Shown here piece by piece: positions 304 to 26,486 of a DNA stretch of 41,333 nt. The stretch lies in IMG/VR virus record IMGVR_UViG_3300036944_000439, positions 1-41,333 of that record, one strand, 5' to 3'. Under the pieces are notes generated by a model. It saw only the letters and a program-made list of their open reading frames with translations, was not told the origin of the DNA and did not search any database. Both the position numbers and the translations under genes were made by a program. Every line of letters starts with the position of its first letter. The stretch's first letter is position 1. This stretch comes from a virus.

Positions 304-1468
304 ATGGAAGTTAAAGTTGACATCAACGAATTAAGAAAGCGTAAGCTTTTTGTCGCGGCCCCGATGTATGGTAAAACTGCCTTAATATAAAGCAATTTAT
401 ATTAATAATTGAGTGAATTGCTGGAAACTCCTTAGAGATAGTATTACTACAAAGTATTCTGAAAAGAAAAGCTTGAATGTTTGAAAAAATACTATATTGG
501 ACAATCAGCAGCCAAGTTCCGTTTAGGAAAAGGTTCAACGACTATCCCGATGGGGAGTAGAGAATAAGCTTAGATTCTCGAAGTGCTCAACTCCAAAATT
601 TTTTGGATGAAGATATAGTCTGATCTATATAGAAATATATAGCTAGGTTAACCTAGAATTTAGATGTTGCGATCTAAATTAAACATAAATGGGTCAATGT
701 GCAGGAATGTTCTGTAGATCTACAAATGATCTTTCCGCTGCCGCAGTTCATTATGGAATTGAGCTGCGATATTACTATCTATTCAATGAATCGCTAATCA
801 CCAGAGCCAGAAATTATTGCGTAGATGAGTTTATGCGTTCTGACTGTAGTCATATGCTATTCATCGACTCCGATATTGGATTCAATGCTCAAGACGTTAT
901 CACGATGCTAGCTCTGATGAGCGACGAATCCGAATATGACGTTCTCTGTGGTCCATATCCCAAGAAGTGTATCTCATGGGAAAAGGTCAAGGCCGCAGTA
1001 AATCTTGGTGTAGCCGATGAAGATGCTAACGTTCTAGAAAAGTATGTTGGTGATTATGTCTTCAACCCAGCTAATGGTCGTACAGAGATTCCTCTGGGTG
1101 AGCCAGTAGAAGTTCTAGAGTCTGGTACCGGGTTCATGATGATCAAGCGTTCTGCATTTGAGAAGTTCTCAGAAGTCTATTCAGACAGAACTTATAAGCC
1201 TGATCACGTTCGTACTGCTGCTTTTGATGGTTCTCGTGAAATCATGATGTACTTCCAGGCAGAGATTGATCCTGAAACCAAGCGTTATCTTTCCGAAGAT
1301 TATCTTTTCTGTCAGATGTCCCGCAAGGCTGGTCTCAAGGTCTGGCTATGCCCATGGATTCAGCTCCAGCATGTTGGTTCGTATATCTTCGGTGGATCTC
1401 TGGCTGACCTAGCTTCGATTGGTGCCTCGGCAACCGTCGACCCAGCAAAGCTCGGAAAACGAACTTAA
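304..1468 (+). CDS. Glycosyltransferase-like protein, gene split by a group I intron (join 304-372, 692-1468)
   Basis: Exon 1 (304-372) encodes 23 residues ending KLFVAAPMYG. In the unspliced frame it would stop at a TAA about six codons into the intron. Exon 2 (692-1468) resumes with GQCAGMF, so splicing gives ...MYGGQCAG... and a 281-residue protein. This restores the N-terminus of a family common in T4-like phages and cyanophages, annotated as family 2 glycosyltransferase: a P-M-Y-G-G-Q/M-C start, then FNESLITRARN, then a FIDSDIGF segment whose DSD resembles the metal/nucleotide-sugar DxD motif of GT-A folds. CGPYPKK and SGTGFMMI further match the family. The substrate is unknown. The ATG at 689 is not the true start: its AT lies in the intron and its G is the intron's last base. 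Confidence 0.85.
373..691 (+). ncRNA. Group I self-splicing intron (319 nt, no ORF)
   Basis: The conserved core is present in order: P (AATTGCTGGAAA, 416-427), Q (AATCAGCAGCCAAG, 503-516), R (GTTCAACGACTATC, 533-546) and S (AAGATATAGTC, 610-620). P4 can form from TGCTG 419-423 with CAGCA 506-510. P7 can form from GACTA 540-544 with TAGTC 616-620. P1 pairs exon bases 367-372 (TATGGT) with the guide GCCTTA at 379-384 with one internal mismatch, placing the hallmark U-G wobble at the 5' splice site. P2 is a perfect 10-bp hairpin (382-391/396-405) with a GCAA loop. Three hairpins follow S (625-642 with GAAA loop, 643-656, 657-680). The last intron base is G691. It encodes no endonuclease. Confidence 0.9.
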
Positions 1469-2792: not shown

Positions 2793-3050
2793 ATCAATTA
2801 GATCTTTGACATTGCTAGAATTAGAACTGCTCAGGAGTAATTAACCAGAGTGCTGGTGGGTAACTGTTGTTATTCGCGATCAGCAAGTGCTGTTAGATTG
2901 TCCGCCCCGCGCGCTTGGAGACCAAGGTGGCCGATCTAATAAGCACCAGACTTGTGGCCCAGAGATGCTATCTCTGGTGTCCACTGCTCAAGTAGGCTTT
3001 AAGCCAAAAGAGAGCCGGTAGGGTAGTCCCCGTGACCGGCCAGATTTTAT
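2793..3050 (+). ncRNA. Structured non-coding segment, leader of the tRNA cluster
   Basis: About 260 bases with no convincing ORF between a strong promoter and tRNA-Arg. By eye it folds into: a long imperfect stem (GTGCT 2887-2891/AGCAC 2942-2946, TTAGAT 2893-2898/ATCTAA 2934-2939) capped by CTTGG 2914-2918/CCAAG 2922-2926; a hairpin CCAGAGAT 2959-2966/ATCTCTGG 2970-2977 closed by GTGG/CCAC; and a hairpin GCCGGT 3014-3019/ACCGGC 3035-3040 with inner GGG/CCC. It is more GC-rich than its surroundings, as expected for selected RNA structure. T4 also carries stable non-tRNA species (RNA C and D) in its tRNA cluster. I recognise no known RNA family. The boundaries are uncertain. Confidence 0.55.
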
Positions 3051-3128
3051 GCCCACGTAGCTCAGTGGATTCAGAGCAGCCGGTTTCTACCCGGCGGGTC
3101 GGGAGTTCGAATCTCTCCGTGGGTGCCA
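3051..3128 (+). tRNA. tRNA-Arg(TCT)
   Basis: Acceptor GCCCACG/CGTGGGT (terminal G-T), D-arm GCTC/GAGC, anticodon stem GCCGG/CCGGC with loop TTTCTAC (anticodon TCT), T-loop TTCGAAT, discriminator G, encoded CCA. Confidence 0.92.
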
Positions 3129-3134
3129 AAATAC

Positions 3135-3210
3135 GGACTTGTAGCTCAATTGGTAGAGCATCGGATTGTCTATCTGACGGTTGTGGATTCGAGTTCCATC
3201 AAGTTCGCCA
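3135..3210 (+). tRNA. tRNA-Asp(GTC)
   Basis: Acceptor GGACTTG/CAAGTTC, D-arm GCTC/GAGC, anticodon stem TCGGA/TCTGA with loop TTGTCTA (anticodon GTC), T-loop TTCGAGT, discriminator G, encoded CCA. Confidence 0.9.
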
Positions 3211-3232
3211 TTTATATGAAGGAGAATATATT

Positions 3233-3439
3233 ATGAGTAATACTTCAAATACAACCTCTGGCACTCCGGCTATCGGATTCTTGCCAGCTCTTGCTATCTT
3301 GTTTATCGCTCTGAAGTTGACAAATTTGATCACCTGGTCATGGTGGTGGGTTCTTTCACCTCTGTGGATCCCTTTTGCGATTGTTCTTGTAGTGGGTATT
3401 ATTTGGTTCTTCTTTGTTGTGTATAAAAGTACTAAGTAA
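3233..3439 (+). CDS. Small membrane protein, 68 aa, within the tRNA cluster
   Basis: The frame is open further upstream through tRNA-Asp, but the real start is the ATG at 3233 (AAGGAG 11 bases upstream), just after the tRNA ends. The protein has two predicted membrane segments, roughly residues 15-30 (IGFLPALAILFIALKL) and 43-65 (PLWIPFAIVLVVGIIWFFFVV), separated by an aromatic SWWWVLSPLW turn. Similar LKLT..I.WSWWWVL.PLW proteins are common in large phages and are often labelled transmembrane Fragile-X-F-associated-like. The function is unknown; the ends are charged and short. Confidence 0.85.
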   Translation: MSNTSNTTSGTPAIGFLPALAILFIALKLTNLITWSWWWVLSPLWIPFAIVLVVGIIWFFFVVYKSTK

Positions 3440-3446
3440 CTATCGT

Positions 3447-3521
3447 GCTTCTGTAGCTCAATTGGTAGAGCATACCACTGATAATGGTAAGACACTGGAT
3501 CGTAACCAGTCGGAAGTACCA
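3447..3521 (+). tRNA. tRNA-Ile(GAT), atypical T-loop
   Basis: Acceptor GCTTCTG/CGGAAGT, D-arm GCTC/GAGC, anticodon stem TACCA/TGGTA with loop CTGATAA (anticodon GAT). T-stem ACTGG/CCAGT, but the loop is ATCGTAA instead of TTCRANY. Discriminator A, encoded CCA. Confidence 0.88.
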
Positions 3522-3533
3522 TAAATAACAAAT

Positions 3534-3608
3534 GCCCTTAAAGCATTAATAGTGATGCACCGGCTTTGTAACCCGGAGAACCCTGGGCGGTACGGGGTAA
3601 GGGCACCA
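3534..3608 (+). tRNA. tRNA-Thr(TGT), non-canonical elbow
   Basis: Acceptor GCCCTTA pairs perfectly with TAAGGGC; discriminator A and CCA follow. The D-stem GCAT/ATGC closes a loop TAATAGTG without the usual GG pair. The anticodon stem CCGGC/CCCGG has a C-C mismatch next to loop TTTGTAA (anticodon TGT). The T-stem CCCTG/CGGGG closes a 7-base loop GGCGGTA rather than TTCGAAT. The overall geometry is intact, so this is either a working tRNA with an unusual D-loop/T-loop contact or a decaying gene. Confidence 0.72.
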
Positions 3609-3616
3609 GAAATTGT

Positions 3617-3699
3617 TCTGTCTTGGGGGAATTGGTAGACCCAGCGCACTGTTAATGCGCCGCGAAAGCGTTTCGGTTCGAGGCCGAAAGACAGAGCCA
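3617..3699 (+). tRNA. tRNA-Asn(GTT) with a class II long variable arm
   Basis: Acceptor TCTGTCT/AGACAGA, discriminator G, encoded CCA. Anticodon stem GCGCA/TGCGC with loop CTGTTAA, identical to the E. coli tRNA-Asn loop; G73 also fits Asn. The D-arm (GGGGAATTGGTAGACCC) is tRNA-Leu-like, and the variable region is an 11-base arm CGC-GAAA-GCG-T. T-stem TTCGG/CCGAA with loop TTCGAGG. Class II architecture is normally limited to Leu, Ser and bacterial Tyr. Confidence 0.88.
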
Positions 3700-3703
3700 T
3701 TTT

Positions 3704-3825
3704 ATCTTATTAGATGATTATATTAGACGGACGCCTCGAGCGAGTAGGTGGTTCGGTCTATTTGACGATAGGCGAAAGTATGTGCGTCAACACATCCGAT
3801 ATTTAATATAATCATCTAATAAGAT
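3704..3825 (+). ncRNA. Structured RNA candidate with 22-bp closing stem and kissing hairpins
   Basis: Bases 3704-3725 and 3804-3825 are perfectly complementary over 22 bases and enclose 78 bases. The stem can continue with CGGA 3728-3731/TCCG 3795-3798. Inside are a short CTCG/CGAG hairpin, a hairpin 3756-3761/3768-3773 with loop TTGACG (3762-3767), and a hairpin ATGTG 3780-3784/CACAT 3791-3795 with loop CGTCAA (3785-3790). The two loops are exact reverse complements, suggesting a kissing interaction. The element fits tightly between tRNA-Asn (ends 3699) and tRNA-Ala (starts 3829) and has no ORF. Confidence 0.7.
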
Positions 3826-3828
3826 TAT

Positions 3829-3903
3829 GGGGATTTGATGATAATGGTAGCATTCCTGATTTGCATTCAGGCTGTAGGGGTTCGATTCCCCTATTCTCCA
3901 CCA
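3829..3903 (+). tRNA. tRNA-Ala(TGC)
   Basis: Acceptor GGGGATT/ATTCTCC with a G-T wobble and one T-T mismatch. Short D-arm (ATG/CAT) with GG in the loop. Anticodon stem CCTGA/TCAGG with loop TTTGCAT (anticodon TGC), T-stem AGGGG/CCCCT with loop TTCGATT, discriminator A, encoded CCA. Confidence 0.85.
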
Positions 3904-3905
3904 CT

Positions 3906-3988
3906 GGGCTCCTAAGGGGGAACGTAGAGTCGCTCTCTACTAGATTAGTAGTTTATCGAATTTGACTACCACACGGCGTGCAAAGCCC
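3906..3988 (+). ncRNA. Second structured RNA candidate between tRNA-Ala and the next inverted repeat
   Basis: GGGCT 3906-3910 pairs with AGCCC 3984-3988 and encloses GTAGAG 3924-3929/CTCTAC 3935-3940 (loop TCGCT), GTAGT 3948-3952/ACTAC 3965-3969 and CAC 3972-3974/GTG 3978-3980. It has no tRNA signature (no T-loop, no CCA) and no ORF. The size, position and multi-hairpin layout resemble the neighbouring element, suggesting a second small stable RNA or a processing spacer. Confidence 0.45.
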
Positions 3989-3994
3989 GTACAG

Positions 3995-4144
3995 TATATT
4001 CTTGGTATTGGTGTTACGTTGTATAACATATAATATGTTATACTGAATTGTACACTAATCATAAGTATGGATACCTGAAGTCTTCAGGACTTTGGAGGGG
4101 TTCGACTCCCGTTTATGAGACGTAACACTAATACCAAGAATATA
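3995..4144 (+). ncRNA. tRNA-like element enclosed by a 24-bp inverted repeat
   Basis: 3995-4018 and 4121-4144 pair over 24 bases with a single G-U. Inside are an AT-rich hairpin (GTATAACA/TGTTATAC, about 4021-4043) and a tRNA-like piece (about 4058-4118). The latter has acceptor-like TCATAA/TTATGA, an anticodon-arm-like palindrome CCTGA/TCAGG around 4075-4089, and a T-arm-like GGGGTTCGACTCCC. There is no room for a D-arm and no CCA. The closing repeat ends one base before tRNA-Phe. It may be a D-armless tRNA relic or a distinct stable RNA whose stem directs processing. Confidence 0.55.
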
Positions 4145-4145
4145 T

Positions 4146-4221
4146 GCCGCTAAAGCTAATCTGGTGAAAGCGTCGGTCTGAAAAGCCGAAGAGTTTGGAT
4201 CGAAACCAAGTAGCGGCACCA
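4146..4221 (+). tRNA. tRNA-Phe(GAA), atypical T-loop
   Basis: Acceptor GCCGCTA/TAGCGGC, anticodon stem TCGGT/GCCGA with loop CTGAAAA (anticodon GAA), discriminator A, encoded CCA. The T-loop is ATCGAAA, starting with A instead of T. Confidence 0.9.
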
Positions 4222-4228
4222 TAATAAT

Positions 4229-4312
4229 GCCCATATGGCGGAATTGGTAGACGCGCTGCACTTAGAATGCAGTCTCAAAAGGGTGGGGGTTCGAGTCCCC
4301 CTATGGGCACCA
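4229..4312 (+). tRNA. tRNA-Leu(TAG)
   Basis: Acceptor GCCCATA/TATGGGC, Leu-type D-arm GGCGGAATTGGTAGACGC, anticodon stem CTGCA/TGCAG with loop CTTAGAA (anticodon TAG), variable arm, T-loop TTCGAGT, discriminator A, encoded CCA. Confidence 0.93.
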
Positions 4313-4320
4313 AAGATAAC

Positions 4321-4405
4321 GCCGAGATCGCCTGAGTGGACGGGCATCCGACTGTAAATCGGACATCTTAGGATACGGTAGGTTCGAACCCTACTCTCGG
4401 CACCA
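4321..4405 (+). tRNA. tRNA-Tyr(GTA)
   Basis: Acceptor GCCGAGA/TCTCGGC, anticodon stem TCCGA/TCGGA with loop CTGTAAA (anticodon GTA), class II variable arm ATC-TTAG-GAT as expected for bacterial-type Tyr, T-loop TTCGAAC, discriminator A, encoded CCA. Confidence 0.93.
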
Positions 4406-4411
4406 ACTCAT

Positions 4412-4486
4412 GCACCCGTGGACTAGTGGCTAAGTCACCACACTTTCACTGTGGAGAAGCCGGGTCGGAACCGGTCGGGTGTTCCA
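4412..4486 (+). tRNA. tRNA-Glu(TTC), atypical T-loop
   Basis: Acceptor GCACCCG/CGGGTGT, anticodon stem CCACA/TGTGG with loop CTTTCAC (anticodon TTC). T-stem GCCGG/CCGGT closes GTCGGAA rather than a TTCRANY loop. Discriminator T (G is usual for bacterial Glu), encoded CCA. Confidence 0.87.
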
Positions 4487-4506
4487 TTAATATCTAAGGA
4501 GAGCAT

Positions 4507-4776
4507 ATGTGGGTTGATACAAGTATAGAACCTGAATTGCGTGGTTATTACTTTGCCGGGTACATAAATCCAGAAGATAACGAAGTATACTACAAAAGTA
4601 TTGCGTATTCAGTAGAGAGAAATCGTTGGTGCGATTGGCGATATCTAGATCGTAGTTTAGTCGTTTTACGTTATGTACCAGCTACCCACTACCCGTTTTA
4701 CGGTGAAAGCGTGGTGCGGGCACAGCCGATGTATAAAGGACTAATGTCACAATTAAGGAATTTGAATCTGTTATAA
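4507..4776 (+). CDS. Hypothetical protein, 89 aa, within the tRNA cluster
   Basis: Start ATG with AAGGAGAG 7-14 bases upstream; the TAA is directly followed by tRNA-Lys. The small protein is rich in Tyr, Trp and Arg (YYFAGYINPEDNEVYYKS; NRWCDWRYLDRS) with no membrane segment or recognised domain. The N-terminal half reads like alternating beta strands. It lies inside the tRNA transcript, so it is probably expressed early. Function unknown. Confidence 0.75.
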   Translation: MWVDTSIEPELRGYYFAGYINPEDNEVYYKSIAYSVERNRWCDWRYLDRSLVVLRYVPATHYPFYGESVVRAQPMYKGLMSQLRNLNLL

Positions 4777-4777
4777 C

Positions 4778-4865
4778 GGGCTGGTTACCATAGCGGTCGA
4801 ATGGGGAGGGCTCTTAATCCTCTAGCGAAAGCTCATCGTGGGGTCGAATCCCACTCAGCCCTCCA
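4778..4865 (+). tRNA. tRNA with Lys anticodon (CTT) and a class II long variable arm
   Basis: Acceptor GGGCTGG/TCAGCCC, discriminator T, encoded CCA. D-arm CCAT/ATGG with a Ser-like loop AGCGGTCGA. Anticodon stem GAGGG/TCCTC with loop CTCTTAA (anticodon CTT, Lys). The variable region has 15 bases with an AGC-GAAA-GCT arm. T-stem GTGGG/CCCAC with loop GTCGAAT. The body looks like tRNA-Ser but the anticodon reads AAG, so the amino acid actually charged is uncertain. Confidence 0.85.
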
Positions 4866-4878
4866 ATAAATAAACAAT

Positions 4879-4953
4879 GCTGGTGTGGGGTTAATGGTAG
4901 CCCGCGGGGTTGTGGACCCTGAAGAATTGGATCGTAACCAATCACCAGTGCCA
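4879..4953 (+). tRNA. tRNA-His(GTG), atypical T-loop
   Basis: Acceptor GCTGGTG/CACCAGT (terminal G-T), D-arm GGG/CCC with GG in the loop, anticodon stem CGGGG/CCCTG with loop TTGTGGA (anticodon GTG), T-stem ATTGG/CCAAT with loop ATCGTAA, encoded CCA. The usual extra G-1:C73 pair of tRNA-His is not clearly present; the base before CCA is G. Confidence 0.85.
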
Positions 4954-4966
4954 TAAATAAAACAAT

Positions 4967-5040
4967 GCTGCGTTAGTATAATGGGATTATTACAGACTTC
5001 CAATCTGACGACGCGGGTTCGATTCCCGCACGCAGCTCCA
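4967..5040 (+). tRNA. tRNA-Gly(TCC)
   Basis: Acceptor GCTGCGT/ACGCAGC, anticodon arm CAGA/TCTG around loop CTTCCAA (anticodon TCC), T-stem GCGGG/CCCGC with loop TTCGATT, discriminator T, encoded CCA. Confidence 0.92.
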
Positions 5041-5048
5041 ATAATTAC

Positions 5049-5135
5049 GGAAGAGTGGCCGAGTGGTTGATGGCCCTAGTCTTGAAAACTAGTGAGGGTG
5101 AAAGTCCTCCGTGGGTTCGAATCCCACCTCTTCCT
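5049..5135 (+). tRNA. tRNA-Ser(TGA), CCA not encoded
   Basis: Acceptor GGAAGAG/CTCTTCC, Ser-type D-arm, anticodon stem CTAGT/ACTAG with loop CTTGAAA (anticodon TGA), variable arm GAGG-GTGAAAGT-CCTC, T-loop TTCGAAT. The gene ends T then CACT, so unlike its neighbours it lacks an encoded CCA. Confidence 0.9.
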
Positions 5136-5144
5136 CACTTCTAC

Positions 5145-5241
<97 letters not shown>

Positions 5242-5259
5242 ATATATATTATGTAACGC

Positions 5260-5333
5260 GGGCTCTGGACAGGGAAGTTATGTGATGGTCTGCAAAACCA
5301 TTTAGGCGAGGGCAGTACTCGCAGAGCCTTCCA
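5260..5333 (+). tRNA. tRNA-Cys(GCA), atypical T-loop
   Basis: Acceptor GGGCTCT/AGAGCCT, U73 (a Cys identity base) and encoded CCA. Anticodon stem ATGGT/ACCAT with loop CTGCAAA (anticodon GCA). T-stem GCGAG/CTCGC closes GGCAGTA, close to the GGCGGTA of tRNA-Thr and unlike TTCRANY. Its 3' end overlaps, antisense, the last codons of the homing endonuclease at 5302-5847. Confidence 0.85.
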
Positions 5334-5847
5334 TTTTTGATTTAACTCTGTAAAATTCGGGAAATTTAGGATTATCCACGCGATATCGCAGTTTTATCCC
5401 GGGATACGCCTTTTCAGCTTCTTTCATAGATGGATAAAATATACCTTCACAAAAAACGGGAACTCTATTAGCTATTAACGGTTTTCTGTGACCAGGTTTT
5501 CCTAACATCCCATATGTTGCATATGAATCTCTAGCTTTAGACTCATGATACTTTTTCATAGATTCTTTGAAATTGGGACTAGATGAAGTATCGCCTCCAT
5601 CACCACCAGTAGTCATGTTGTATTCTGGTTTAATTTTTTCAATCCAGTATTCTTCATTGTTACTTTCTTCTAATACTTCTAATATAAATGCTTCTTTTCC
5701 ATATTTTCTTATAGCTTTATGAAAATATGTTTTAGAGCCAGAATTTGAACAATATACATGTTTCTGAAATCTTTTTTCTACTGAAAATTTAGTTTTTCCA
5801 ACATACTGTTTACTATTAATGGTGTTGGTGATACAATAAATAATCAT
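5302..5847 (-). CDS. GIY-YIG homing endonuclease, 181 aa
   Basis: The N-terminus MIIYCITNTINSKQYVGKT matches the GIY-YIG signature (I-Y-x11-YVG), followed by FQKHVYCSNSGSKTYFHKAIRKYG (active-site Arg and strand-helix pattern) and EYWIEKIKPEYNMTTGGDGG, which supplies the catalytic Glu and the asparagine-containing end of the nuclease core. The C-terminal part is DNA-binding-like (NFKESMKKYHES). Start ATG with AAGGAG about 11 bases upstream on the minus strand, and a TATAAATA late promoter at 5913-5920. The frame ends inside tRNA-Cys, so about ten C-terminal residues are encoded antisense to that tRNA. It sits between the tRNA cluster and gene 44 as a free-standing mobile gene. Confidence 0.88.
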   Translation of the reverse strand: MIIYCITNTINSKQYVGKTKFSVEKRFQKHVYCSNSGSKTYFHKAIRKYGKEAFILEVLEESNNEEYWIEKIKPEYNMTTGGDGGDTSSSPNFKESMKKYHESKARDSYATYGMLGKPGHRKPLIANRVPVFCEGIFYPSMKEAEKAYPGIKLRYRVDNPKFPEFYRVKSKMEGSASTALA

Positions 5848-5935: not shown

Positions 5936-6883
5936 ATGACAAACAATAAAGAAGATTTTTTGTGGACTGAAAAGTATCGACCAAAGGTTATTGATGATAC
6001 TATCTTAACCGATGAACTAAAGACTACATTCAAGCAATTTGTAGCACAGAAAAACATTCCAAATCTTATTTTATCTGGATCTGCTGGAGTTGGTAAAACC
6101 ACCTCAGCTAAAGCTATGTTAGAAGAGCTTGGGTGTGACTACATCGTTATCAACGGTTCTATGAATGGCAATATCGATACGCTTCGTAATGAGATTCAGC
6201 AATTTGCTTCTTCAGTTTCTTTTACTGGTGGCAGAAAGTATGTTATTCTCGACGAGGCAGATTATCTAAACGCTAACAGTACACAGCCTGCTCTGAGAAA
6301 CTTCATGGAAGAATTCTCTAAAAATTGCGGCTTCATTCTGACTTGCAACTTCATCAATAAGATTATCGAGCCTCTTCGCTCTAGATGTTCTGTTATCGAC
6401 TTCAAGATCAAGAAGTCTGATACGCCGAAGTTAGCTATGCAGTTTCTCAAGAGAGTCTCTTTTATTCTAACTGCCGAAAAGGTTGAATATGATAAGGATG
6501 CTGTAGCTGAAGTTATCATCAAGTATTTCCCAGATTGGCGACGAGTTCTAAATGAGCTTCAGCGGTATTCCGCAACCGGTAAGATCGATAGCGGTATTCT
6601 GACTAACATCTCAGATAGTTCATTCAAAGTTCTAATCGGCTATCTCAAGGAAAAGAATTTTGCTGCTACTCGAAAGTGGGTTGCCGAATCTACAACTACC
6701 GATAACACGGAATTATTCCGCAAGTTTTATGATGTAGCATCTGATGTTATGGAGCCAGCTTCTATTCCGCAGTTGGTTATTCATCTATCTCTCTATCAGT
6801 ATCGTGCGGCATTTGCAGCTGATCCAGAAGTTAATCTTATGGCTTTCCTAACCGAAGTGATGTTCGACTGTCAATTCCGCTAG
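5936..6883 (+). CDS. 44: Clamp loader large subunit (gp44-like AAA+ ATPase)
   Basis: 315 residues counted from ATG 5936, which I prefer to GTG 5930 because GAGAGAG lies at the right distance; T4 gp44 has 319. Visible motifs: LWTEKYRP start, Walker A GSAGVGKTT (about 48-56), Walker B ILDEAD (104-109), and the SRC arginine-finger motif (about 149-151), all typical of RFC-type loaders. With gp62 it loads the gp45 clamp onto primed DNA using ATP. It is normally fused in one operon with gene 62, but here a minus-strand homing endonuclease separates them. The stop codons of the two convergent genes share the palindrome CTAG at 6880-6883. Confidence 0.95.
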   Translation: MTNNKEDFLWTEKYRPKVIDDTILTDELKTTFKQFVAQKNIPNLILSGSAGVGKTTSAKAMLEELGCDYIVINGSMNGNIDTLRNEIQQFASSVSFTGGRKYVILDEADYLNANSTQPALRNFMEEFSKNCGFILTCNFINKIIEPLRSRCSVIDFKIKKSDTPKLAMQFLKRVSFILTAEKVEYDKDAVAEVIIKYFPDWRRVLNELQRYSATGKIDSGILTNISDSSFKVLIGYLKEKNFAATRKWVAESTTTDNTELFRKFYDVASDVMEPASIPQLVIHLSLYQYRAAFAADPEVNLMAFLTEVMFDCQFR

Positions 6884-7593
6884 TTTAACAAACTTCTAAT
6901 AGCATTGGGTGTAACATTATACTTTTCAGCATATAGTTGACAAAATGCGCCCTTATAAGTTAGTTGTTTCCCATGCGGTGTGTGTGGAATTTCAATATGA
7001 ATATTCATATATGCATCGGTAATTTCTCGCTGAATTTCTGCAGTTAATTTTCGAGACCCATGATATTTGCCTTTTCTCTTATTACTCATAGCTAACTTAG
7101 ATGTATCACTGTGAAATTTGCCAAACATAGAATTATTTTTACCAGCAACTTTTCCAGTTTTGCTTAGAGATAATTTAGCTTTATGATCAGATGAAAAGTA
7201 TCTTCCTTCCGCCCAACCATCTTTGGTATATTCACTAAGACAAACTTTATCAACAAATTTAGAAATAAAACCATTATTCACCCAAACACGATTCCGAGTA
7301 TCAAATAATGCATTATCTGATTTGTTGATAAAATCATCACGAGCAGAAACGTTTAATCTCTTTAATACTCGTTCTTCCCATTTTCTTGCTTTATTAACCG
7401 ATGAAAATACCTTACGCACTTCATAAATAAATGATTCTTTTCCATGTTCATGAATTAATTGCTTTATGTAAGCGGATGAAGTATAGTAAGTTTTCCATAA
7501 GTCGTCTGGGTTACAGTCTTTAGAATATCTCACACCATAATAAAATTGATTAGTTGGCACACATTTAATTAAATAAGTATAAGGAATATTCAT
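6880..7593 (-). CDS. GIY-YIG-type homing endonuclease between genes 44 and 62, 237 aa
   Basis: The open frame extends to 7692, but the ATG at 7593 has CGGAGAAATTAAC just upstream and begins at the domain (MNIPYTYLIKCVPTNQFYYGVRY, a GIY-YIG-like strand pair). Further on: VWVNNGF...DGWAEGR, the same module as in the partial endonuclease at 1-300, then NUMOD3-like DHKAKLSLSKTGKVAGKNNSMFGK, and a C-terminal helical region (KGAFCQLYAEKYNVTPNAI) resembling an HTH. A TATAAATA promoter lies 21-28 bases upstream. The gene is free-standing, antisense to the replication operon, and its stop overlaps that of gene 44. Confidence 0.85.
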   Translation of the reverse strand: MNIPYTYLIKCVPTNQFYYGVRYSKDCNPDDLWKTYYTSSAYIKQLIHEHGKESFIYEVRKVFSSVNKARKWEERVLKRLNVSARDDFINKSDNALFDTRNRVWVNNGFISKFVDKVCLSEYTKDGWAEGRYFSSDHKAKLSLSKTGKVAGKNNSMFGKFHSDTSKLAMSNKRKGKYHGSRKLTAEIQREITDAYMNIHIEIPHTPHGKQLTYKGAFCQLYAEKYNVTPNAIRSLLN

Positions 7594-7613
7594 GTTAATT
7601 TCTCCGTTCAATT

Positions 7614-7621
7614 TATTTATA
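7614..7621 (-). promoter_or_regulatory. T4-type late promoter TATAAATA for the 6880-7593 endonuclease
   Basis: Exact octamer on the minus strand, 21 bases upstream of the preferred start codon. This supports that start and suggests late-only expression. Confidence 0.65.
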
Positions 7622-7656
7622 AGAAATGATTTTTTCATGTTTGATTGTAACTTCAA

Positions 7657-8046
7657 ATGAGTCCCTTTGACTTTATCAATGCGATAAGTCATACTAAAGT
7701 TGATCTCATTCGCACCGCCGATGATCCTGCTTCTGCCGAAAAATCATACAACTCATTCATTGTCAATCGTGGCTTAGCATACTATCCAGATACTGTTCTG
7801 TATGCTAATGAGATGAATATCTGTAATAACATTGACTCAAAACTAAAAAACGATTATCTAATAAATATCATTAGACCCAAGAAGAGATTCTCTAAATGGG
7901 CTAAACGAGTTTCAGTGGATGATCTAGAACTAATCAAGTCATATTATGGATATACCGATAATGTAGCTTCTCAGGTTCTTTCTATTTTGTCTGCTGATCA
8001 ATTAAAGATTATTAGACAAAAACAAGAACAAGGTGGCGTAAAATGA
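7657..8046 (+). CDS. 62: Clamp loader small subunit (gp62-like)
   Basis: 129 residues; T4 gp62 is longer at 187. The FIVNRGLAYYPDTVLYANEMN segment and RPKKRFSKWAKR match conserved gp62 positions (T4: [32 protein letters not shown]). It partners gp44 in a 4:1 complex that opens and closes the clamp. The position directly before regA and 43 is as in T4. No clear Shine-Dalgarno precedes ATG 7657 (TTGTAACTTCAA), which may reflect loss of its original upstream context when the endonuclease inserted. The end overlaps regA by 4 bases (ATGA). Confidence 0.85.
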   Translation: MSPFDFINAISHTKVDLIRTADDPASAEKSYNSFIVNRGLAYYPDTVLYANEMNICNNIDSKLKNDYLINIIRPKKRFSKWAKRVSVDDLELIKSYYGYTDNVASQVLSILSADQLKIIRQKQEQGGVK

Positions 8047-25932: not shown

Positions 25933-26091
25933 ATGAAAACACAAGACGGATGGTTATCATGTGATCATTGCGATTCAGAGTATAAAGTAGTAAGCGCTTT
26001 ATCAAACGCCAATATCGTATCATATTGCCCCTTCTGCGGAAGCGAAAATGAAGACGAGCTTCTAGCATTTGATGAAGACTATGACCAATGA
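25933..26091 (+). CDS. Small zinc-ribbon protein, 52 aa
   Basis: ATG 25933 opens MKTQDGWLSCDHCDSEYKVVS...SYCPFCGSENEDEL and ends TGA 26089-26091. Two CxxC pairs (CDHC and CPFC) about 24 residues apart form a rubredoxin-like zinc ribbon; the tail is acidic. Proteins of this shape are frequent in T4-like phages, with unknown role. It overlaps the next gene by 4 bases (ATGA). The ribosome-binding site is weak. Confidence 0.7.
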   Translation: MKTQDGWLSCDHCDSEYKVVSALSNANIVSYCPFCGSENEDELLAFDEDYDQ

Positions 26092-26486
26092 CTTGGCTCT
26101 ACAAGGGATCAGAATTTTCTGATCCTGAGTCATTTTATGGGTTTGTATACATTATAACTCACAAAGAATCTGGTAAAAAATATATCGGAAGAAAGTATTT
26201 TACTCTAGCTGGATACAAACAAGTAAACGGTAAGCGTAAAAAGATACGAAAGGATTCCGGTTGGCAAGATTACTGGGGGAGTTCTAAGACTCTTCTTGCT
26301 GAAGTAGAGGCTCAGGGGAAAGATAAGTTTACTCGAGAAATAGTTAGATTGTGTAAATCTAAGAGTGATTGCTCTTACCATGAGAGTAAGCTCATACTAG
26401 AGACTGATGCTCTACTTAAGGAAGACTATTACAATGAGTGGATCAGTGTTAGAATTAATAGTTCACATTTGAAGTCTATTAAATAA
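26088..26486 (+). CDS. GIY-YIG endonuclease-like protein (Seg-like), 132 aa, with replaced 3' end
   Basis: [22 protein letters not shown] (about residues 17-38) is a GIY-YIG motif. [31 protein letters not shown] supplies the middle strand-helix, and [14 protein letters not shown] the later Glu region. It lacks NUMOD repeats and may be a domesticated or minimal enzyme, since relatives are widely conserved in T4-like phages near nrdB. The last 17 codons (from NEWISVRI) are echoed by a second C-terminal fragment at 27023-27091 beyond the next homing endonuclease, so this 3' end was duplicated when that gene inserted. Confidence 0.8.

Follow-up and report, generated by a model that had tools for sequence, protein, structure and literature searches.

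The 122-nt element at positions 3704-3825 of the window, the 41,333-nt (41.3-kb) virus record from an uncultured T4-like phage that was analysed here, is best explained as a stable, rnaC-like kissing-loop RNA, with a probability of roughly 0.6. The RNA is real and probably functional, and we most likely see in it a form of T4 rnaC that is either strongly diverged or convergent in function. Its two hairpin loops, UUGACG and CGUCAA, match those of T4 rnaC (species 1) exactly in both sequence and order; rnaC together with rnaD (species 2) makes up the two annotated small stable RNAs of the T4 tRNA cluster. An earlier note on this DNA had proposed a new stable RNA. A stable kissing-loop RNA is indeed the best-supported reading, but the loop module itself is not new, being present already in the annotated T4 rnaC that has been seen on Northern blots.

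The element is located in a + strand tRNA array that has the replication genes gp45 and gp44 on either side. ARAGORN placed tRNA-Asn (GUU) at 3617-3699 (+) and tRNA-Ala (UGC) at 3829-3903 (+), the latter also found by the Rfam tRNA model, which leaves 4 nt after tRNA-Asn and 3 nt before tRNA-Ala. A tRNA-Thr (UGU) further upstream, at 3534-3605, was missed by ARAGORN and scored 29.6 bits, barely over the Rfam tRNA cut-off; its T-arm is unusual. The ends of the element are formed by a perfect inverted repeat on the + strand (3704-3725 and 3804-3825, 22/22 complementary, enclosing 78 nt), and the earlier claim that a 22-bp repeat fills the space between two tRNAs is exact in its coordinates. In the predicted fold this closing stem, P1, is extended to 24 bp by the pairs G3726-U3803 and A3727-U3802. 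The description of the spacer as AT-rich applies to the stem (14% G+C) but not to the core (51% G+C).

With both loops kept open as a constraint, the element folds into a four-way junction of -44.5 kcal/mol. Inside P1, the strand CGGA at 3728-3731 (+) pairs with UCCG at 3795-3798 to form P1b, followed by hairpin A (3732-3750, +; CGCCU/AGGUG), which contains the heptamer CGAGUAG at 3741-3747. Arm 1 (3752-3776, +) consists of UUCG/CGAA, a 1-nt bulge on the 5' side and UCUAU/AUAGG, and carries loop 1, UUGACG, at 3762-3767; its innermost hairpin reads CTAT-TTGACG-ATAG (3758-3771). Hairpin 2 (3781-3794, +) has the stem UGUG/CACA and loop 2, CGUCAA, at 3785-3790. The two 6-nt loops are exact complements at the positions that had been claimed for them.

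The structure is unusual compared with shuffled sequence. The full element has a minimum free energy of -46.2 kcal/mol (z = -6.5), and none of 200 shuffles was as good. A perfect inverted repeat of at least 14 bp in a comparable size range was found in 0 of 200 dinucleotide shuffles of positions 3001-5300, and when the core was shuffled 20,000 times, only one shuffle contained any complementary pair of 6-nt hairpin loops. Both the z-score of the whole element and the rarity of the loop pair bear out the statement that such a design is not expected by chance. In 2.86 Mb of related phage DNA (both strands), ten complementary pairs of 6-nt hairpin loops were found, and the window element is the sole case in a tRNA array. 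Without its closing stem, the core is no more stable than shuffled sequence (z = -0.3).

The interpretation of the loops as a kissing pair is mainly supported by the rnaC family. T4 rnaC has the hairpins CGTTT-TTGACG-GAACG and then GAGTAG-CGTCAA-CTACTT. By blastn, rnaC is present in about 720 phage records, with more divergent relatives in addition, and in phage records its genes mostly carry no annotation or are covered by predictions of hypothetical proteins or tRNAs; no Rfam family was found for T4 rnaC or rnaD. In an aligned collection of 33 members from Straboviridae and Marfavirus, the loops are exactly complementary in 33/33, in three sequence variants: in addition to the T4 type, TTGATG/CATCAA occurs in Yersinia phage fHe-Yen9-01 and TTGGCG/CGCCAA in the two Marfavirus-type members. 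In a scoring of the alignment that counted the kissing helix, pairing was intact in 97% of cells, and both sides changed in 32 of 49 pairs. In the kissing helix itself 100% of cells pair, and its two double changes, first noticed in 13 sequences, are few as independent events but both compensatory; the supporting stems covary freely. That two lineages altered both loops together supports the kissing pair for rnaC. The comparison thereby gives rnaC a tertiary contact backed by covariation. No earlier report of a loop-loop contact in rnaC was found in searches of the open-access literature, and we know of none.

The earlier note had suggested looking for covariation among homologs of the segment. 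Close homologs of the element were not found, which confined this test to rnaC; there the loop covariation came out positive, so that the proposed kissing pair is backed at the level of the T4 rnaC family and, in the element, by the identity of the loops. Judged from the window RNA alone, the folding energies make kissing plausible.

Beyond the loops, the two RNAs share a bulge on the 5' side below the loop-1 helix, and both T4-type rnaC and the element have CGAGUAG upstream of loop 1. Both occupy a tRNA-cluster spacer, flush between tRNAs and on the same strand; rnaC members lie between tRNA-Trp and tRNA-Gly in KaAlpha, CW742 and COW86c, and between tRNA-Phe and tRNA-Trp in EcS1. Sequence identity is confined to the loops, their GCGTCAAC context and CGAGTAG. 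The overall architecture differs: in rnaC the closing helix is short, arm 1 is made of three helices, the linker is longer and a T-arm-like hairpin lies at the 3' side, whereas the element is closed by a 22-bp stem, carries an additional 5' hairpin and has no T-arm. The T-arm-like 3' hairpin (CCUGGUUCGAAUCCAGG type), a helix found in all aligned rnaC members, does not occur in 3704-3825, nor do the conserved closing helix and the GAGG/CCUU helix of rnaC, in place of which the element has the A+T-rich P1.

With default filters, a covariance model based on 13 rnaC homologs gave no match to the element; with filters off, only local matches of 3.5-4.0 bits to the two hairpins were obtained, and a 7.8-bit match fell on the opposite strand. 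Applied to the window, 37 tRNA-bearing loci and 28 whole records, the same model gave top non-rnaC matches that lay on or abutted tRNAs, mainly via the T-arm, and these were rejected. A descriptor of the hairpin pair (loop TT[AG]N[CT]G, a reverse-complement loop within about 110 nt downstream, stems of at least 4 bp summing to at least 9) matched only rnaC genes and the window element in 7.8 Mb searched on both strands.

Searches for relatives of the element itself were unproductive. Rfam returned a plant miRNA match (E = 1.8) that was dismissed as chance, and blastn in phages gave only 24-nt chance matches. One viral scan with a loop-motif pattern contained no second case with both hairpins among the matches listed, another recovered T4-type rnaC plus chance matches, and the others gave nothing or chance matches, three of which were copies of one coding gene. 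A pattern made from the conserved rnaC ends retrieved further rnaC only, and none of the 15 matches of a pattern scan of GTDB genomes (0/15) had the hairpins. Intermediates between the element and rnaC were found neither with the IMG/VR patterns, nor in GTDB genomes, nor in the whole records of distant T4-like genomes that were searched. Because the covariance model, the T-arm-like hairpin, the closing helices and the search for intermediates all fail, we do not file the element as a member of rnaC. It has the rnaC loop module and probably works like rnaC. A common ancestor is likely, but the searches brought up no close relative that would allow shared descent to be told from convergence.

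Long stems are a recurrent feature of tRNA arrays in these phages. The window has a second such element at 3995-4144 (+), with 32-nt arms that are 88% complementary and an end 1 nt before tRNA-Phe; its fold is also much better than shuffles (z = -7.2) and encloses a T-arm-like hairpin (GGAGGGGUUCGACUCCC), no kissing loops were found in it, and Rfam gave a T-loop fragment only. The 91 nt between tRNA-Ala and this second element (3904-3994) form several hairpins, fold no better than shuffles (z = -0.6) and may be a degenerate tRNA. In 1.43 Mb of related loci, a census of perfect stems of at least 14 bp with loops of 40-220 nt placed 11 of 15 in or near tRNA arrays, which account for 8.6% of the bases (nominal p = 2e-9, with overlapping entries in L114 and duplicates in L122/L146). 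These T4-like phage arrays include three stems in a row in L114 (12124-12576), two of them with the same stem sequence, and others in L122 (6255-6391), L146 (4456-4592), L138 (11691-11853), L158 (11994-12119) and L100 (3674-3869). In all of these loci and in both window elements, the 3' arm usually stops a few nucleotides short of the next tRNA, and several of the long-stem elements enclose T-arm-like hairpins. Compared with each other, the L122 and L114 stems, which are homologous, show compensatory differences at three pairs and a single change of G-C to G-U; the three differences being compensatory, the pairing has been kept. As candidates for rnaC, the stems of these loci and window 3995-4144 were rejected because the descriptor found no kissing loops. 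Taken together, the long-stem elements suggest that processed RNAs of several kinds reside in these phages' tRNA arrays, with long-stem RNAs that standard annotation has overlooked.

The occurrence of such stems in related phages, mostly without kissing loops, also speaks for another explanation of the element, in which the stem serves only as an RNase III site in tRNA-operon processing and the core is filler that is rapidly degraded. The position of the 22-bp stem against the tRNAs and the unremarkable folding of the core alone agree with this. However, a loop pair that is identical to that of rnaC and arises in 1 of 20,000 shuffles is unexpected in filler, and most tRNA junctions of the array have no such stem, making this explanation improbable. 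Somewhat more credible, but still unlikely, is that TTGACG and CGTCAA pair with each other as a single ordinary nested hairpin without any tertiary contact. The energies of the full element are close, at -44.5 kcal/mol for the kissing fold before loop-loop energy is counted, -45.6 for the nested helix and -46.2 for the pseudoknot-free minimum, and the nested helix is the minimum when the core is taken alone. On the other hand, each of the two segments is also the loop of a stem of its own, and the loop-loop pairing, worth -5.5 kcal/mol as a free duplex, would give the open-loop fold about that much or more and take it below the pseudoknot-free minimum. For most rnaC members tested, the nested alternative is far worse in energy.

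A further possibility is that the element is an independent structured RNA of unrelated function, which shares its kissing pair with rnaC by chance or convergence and not by descent. The absence of model-level similarity, the different order of the arms, the missing T-arm and the lack of intermediates all favor this. Against it, rnaC's exact hexamer would be hit with a chance of about 1 in 4,096, supposing that any 6-nt kissing pair suffices, the location in a tRNA spacer agrees with rnaC as well, and the descriptor found nothing else in 7.8 Mb; we regard an independent origin as rather doubtful. A feature acting at the DNA level, such as a cruciform, a replication or recombination site, a MITE-like insertion or a terminator, is very improbable. 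Cruciform extrusion would be possible for a perfect inverted repeat of 22 bp, but the core is structured, G+C-rich and RNA-like in composition, the strand is that of the tRNAs and of rnaC, and no copies of the element were found elsewhere. The MITE and terminator readings were rejected, as no target duplication is visible at the element ends and a scan of the element found no terminator-like site. A plain tRNA was likewise discarded, ARAGORN having no match over the element.

Other RNAs encoded near phage tRNA genes offer partial parallels. The element resembles phage tRNAs and tmRNA in where its gene lies, in its multi-branched fold and probably in the way it is processed, but it has no Rfam or ARAGORN match, T-arm, CCA end or tag reading frame. 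Like the element, rnaD is a small RNA of a tRNA cluster, stable and of unknown role; however, the descriptor detects no kissing pair in it, and we noticed no sequence in common. GOLLD and ROOL are far larger than the element, GOLLD often exceeding 800 nt, and Rfam gave no match to either in it. Both are phage RNAs found near tRNA islands, with unknown role, and kissing loops are part of their assembly (PMC12286853). The two T4 RNAs are late transcripts validated by Northern blotting, rnaC being detected as a discrete species (PMC9697503), and the role of rnaC was given as unknown in papers from 2010, 2022 and 2025 (PMC3014915; PMC9697503; PMC12685909), the last of which describes an evolution experiment with a recurrent SNP in rnaD (PMC12685909). 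The two loops appear to be the functional heart of rnaC, since they are almost all that a very different phage has retained of it, and the loop match makes the long-standing question of rnaC's job testable.

For the element as an rnaC-like kissing-loop RNA, the following working can be proposed. Judging from gene order, the tRNA array and the element would be transcribed as a single precursor. With 22 perfect base pairs, P1 offers the continuous double-stranded RNA of about two turns (at least 20 bp) that characterizes RNase III stems; it would be a good substrate for this enzyme and be cut by it, and such processing is plausible. A cut by RNase P at the 5' end of tRNA-Ala would fix the 3' side of the element. 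The two helical turns of P1 may keep the core apart from the adjoining tRNAs, and the core would fold as a four-way junction of P1, hairpin A, arm 1 and hairpin 2, with arm 1 and hairpin 2 locked by the 6-bp UUGACG/CGUCAA kissing pair, as covariation indicates for rnaC and the identical loops suggest here. Such a compact fold could withstand nucleases and act late in infection, like the late T4 rnaC. The partner might be a host factor of RNA processing or translation with affinity for tRNA-like RNA, which is a weak guess. It would be a long shot to place the element and rnaC in a wider class of phage RNAs from tRNA arrays, with a closing stem just before the next tRNA, in which rnaC-type loops would also pair between molecules to give dimers or oligomers, a miniature counterpart of GOLLD and ROOL.

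Elsewhere in the window, genes for GIY-YIG / SegE-like homing endonucleases are present at 5302-5847 (-), 6880-7692 (-) and 26088-26486 (+); two of the three lie near the tRNA array, a position comparable to that of segB in T4. A group I intron is located at 339-642 (+) (Rfam RF00028, 82.7 bits).
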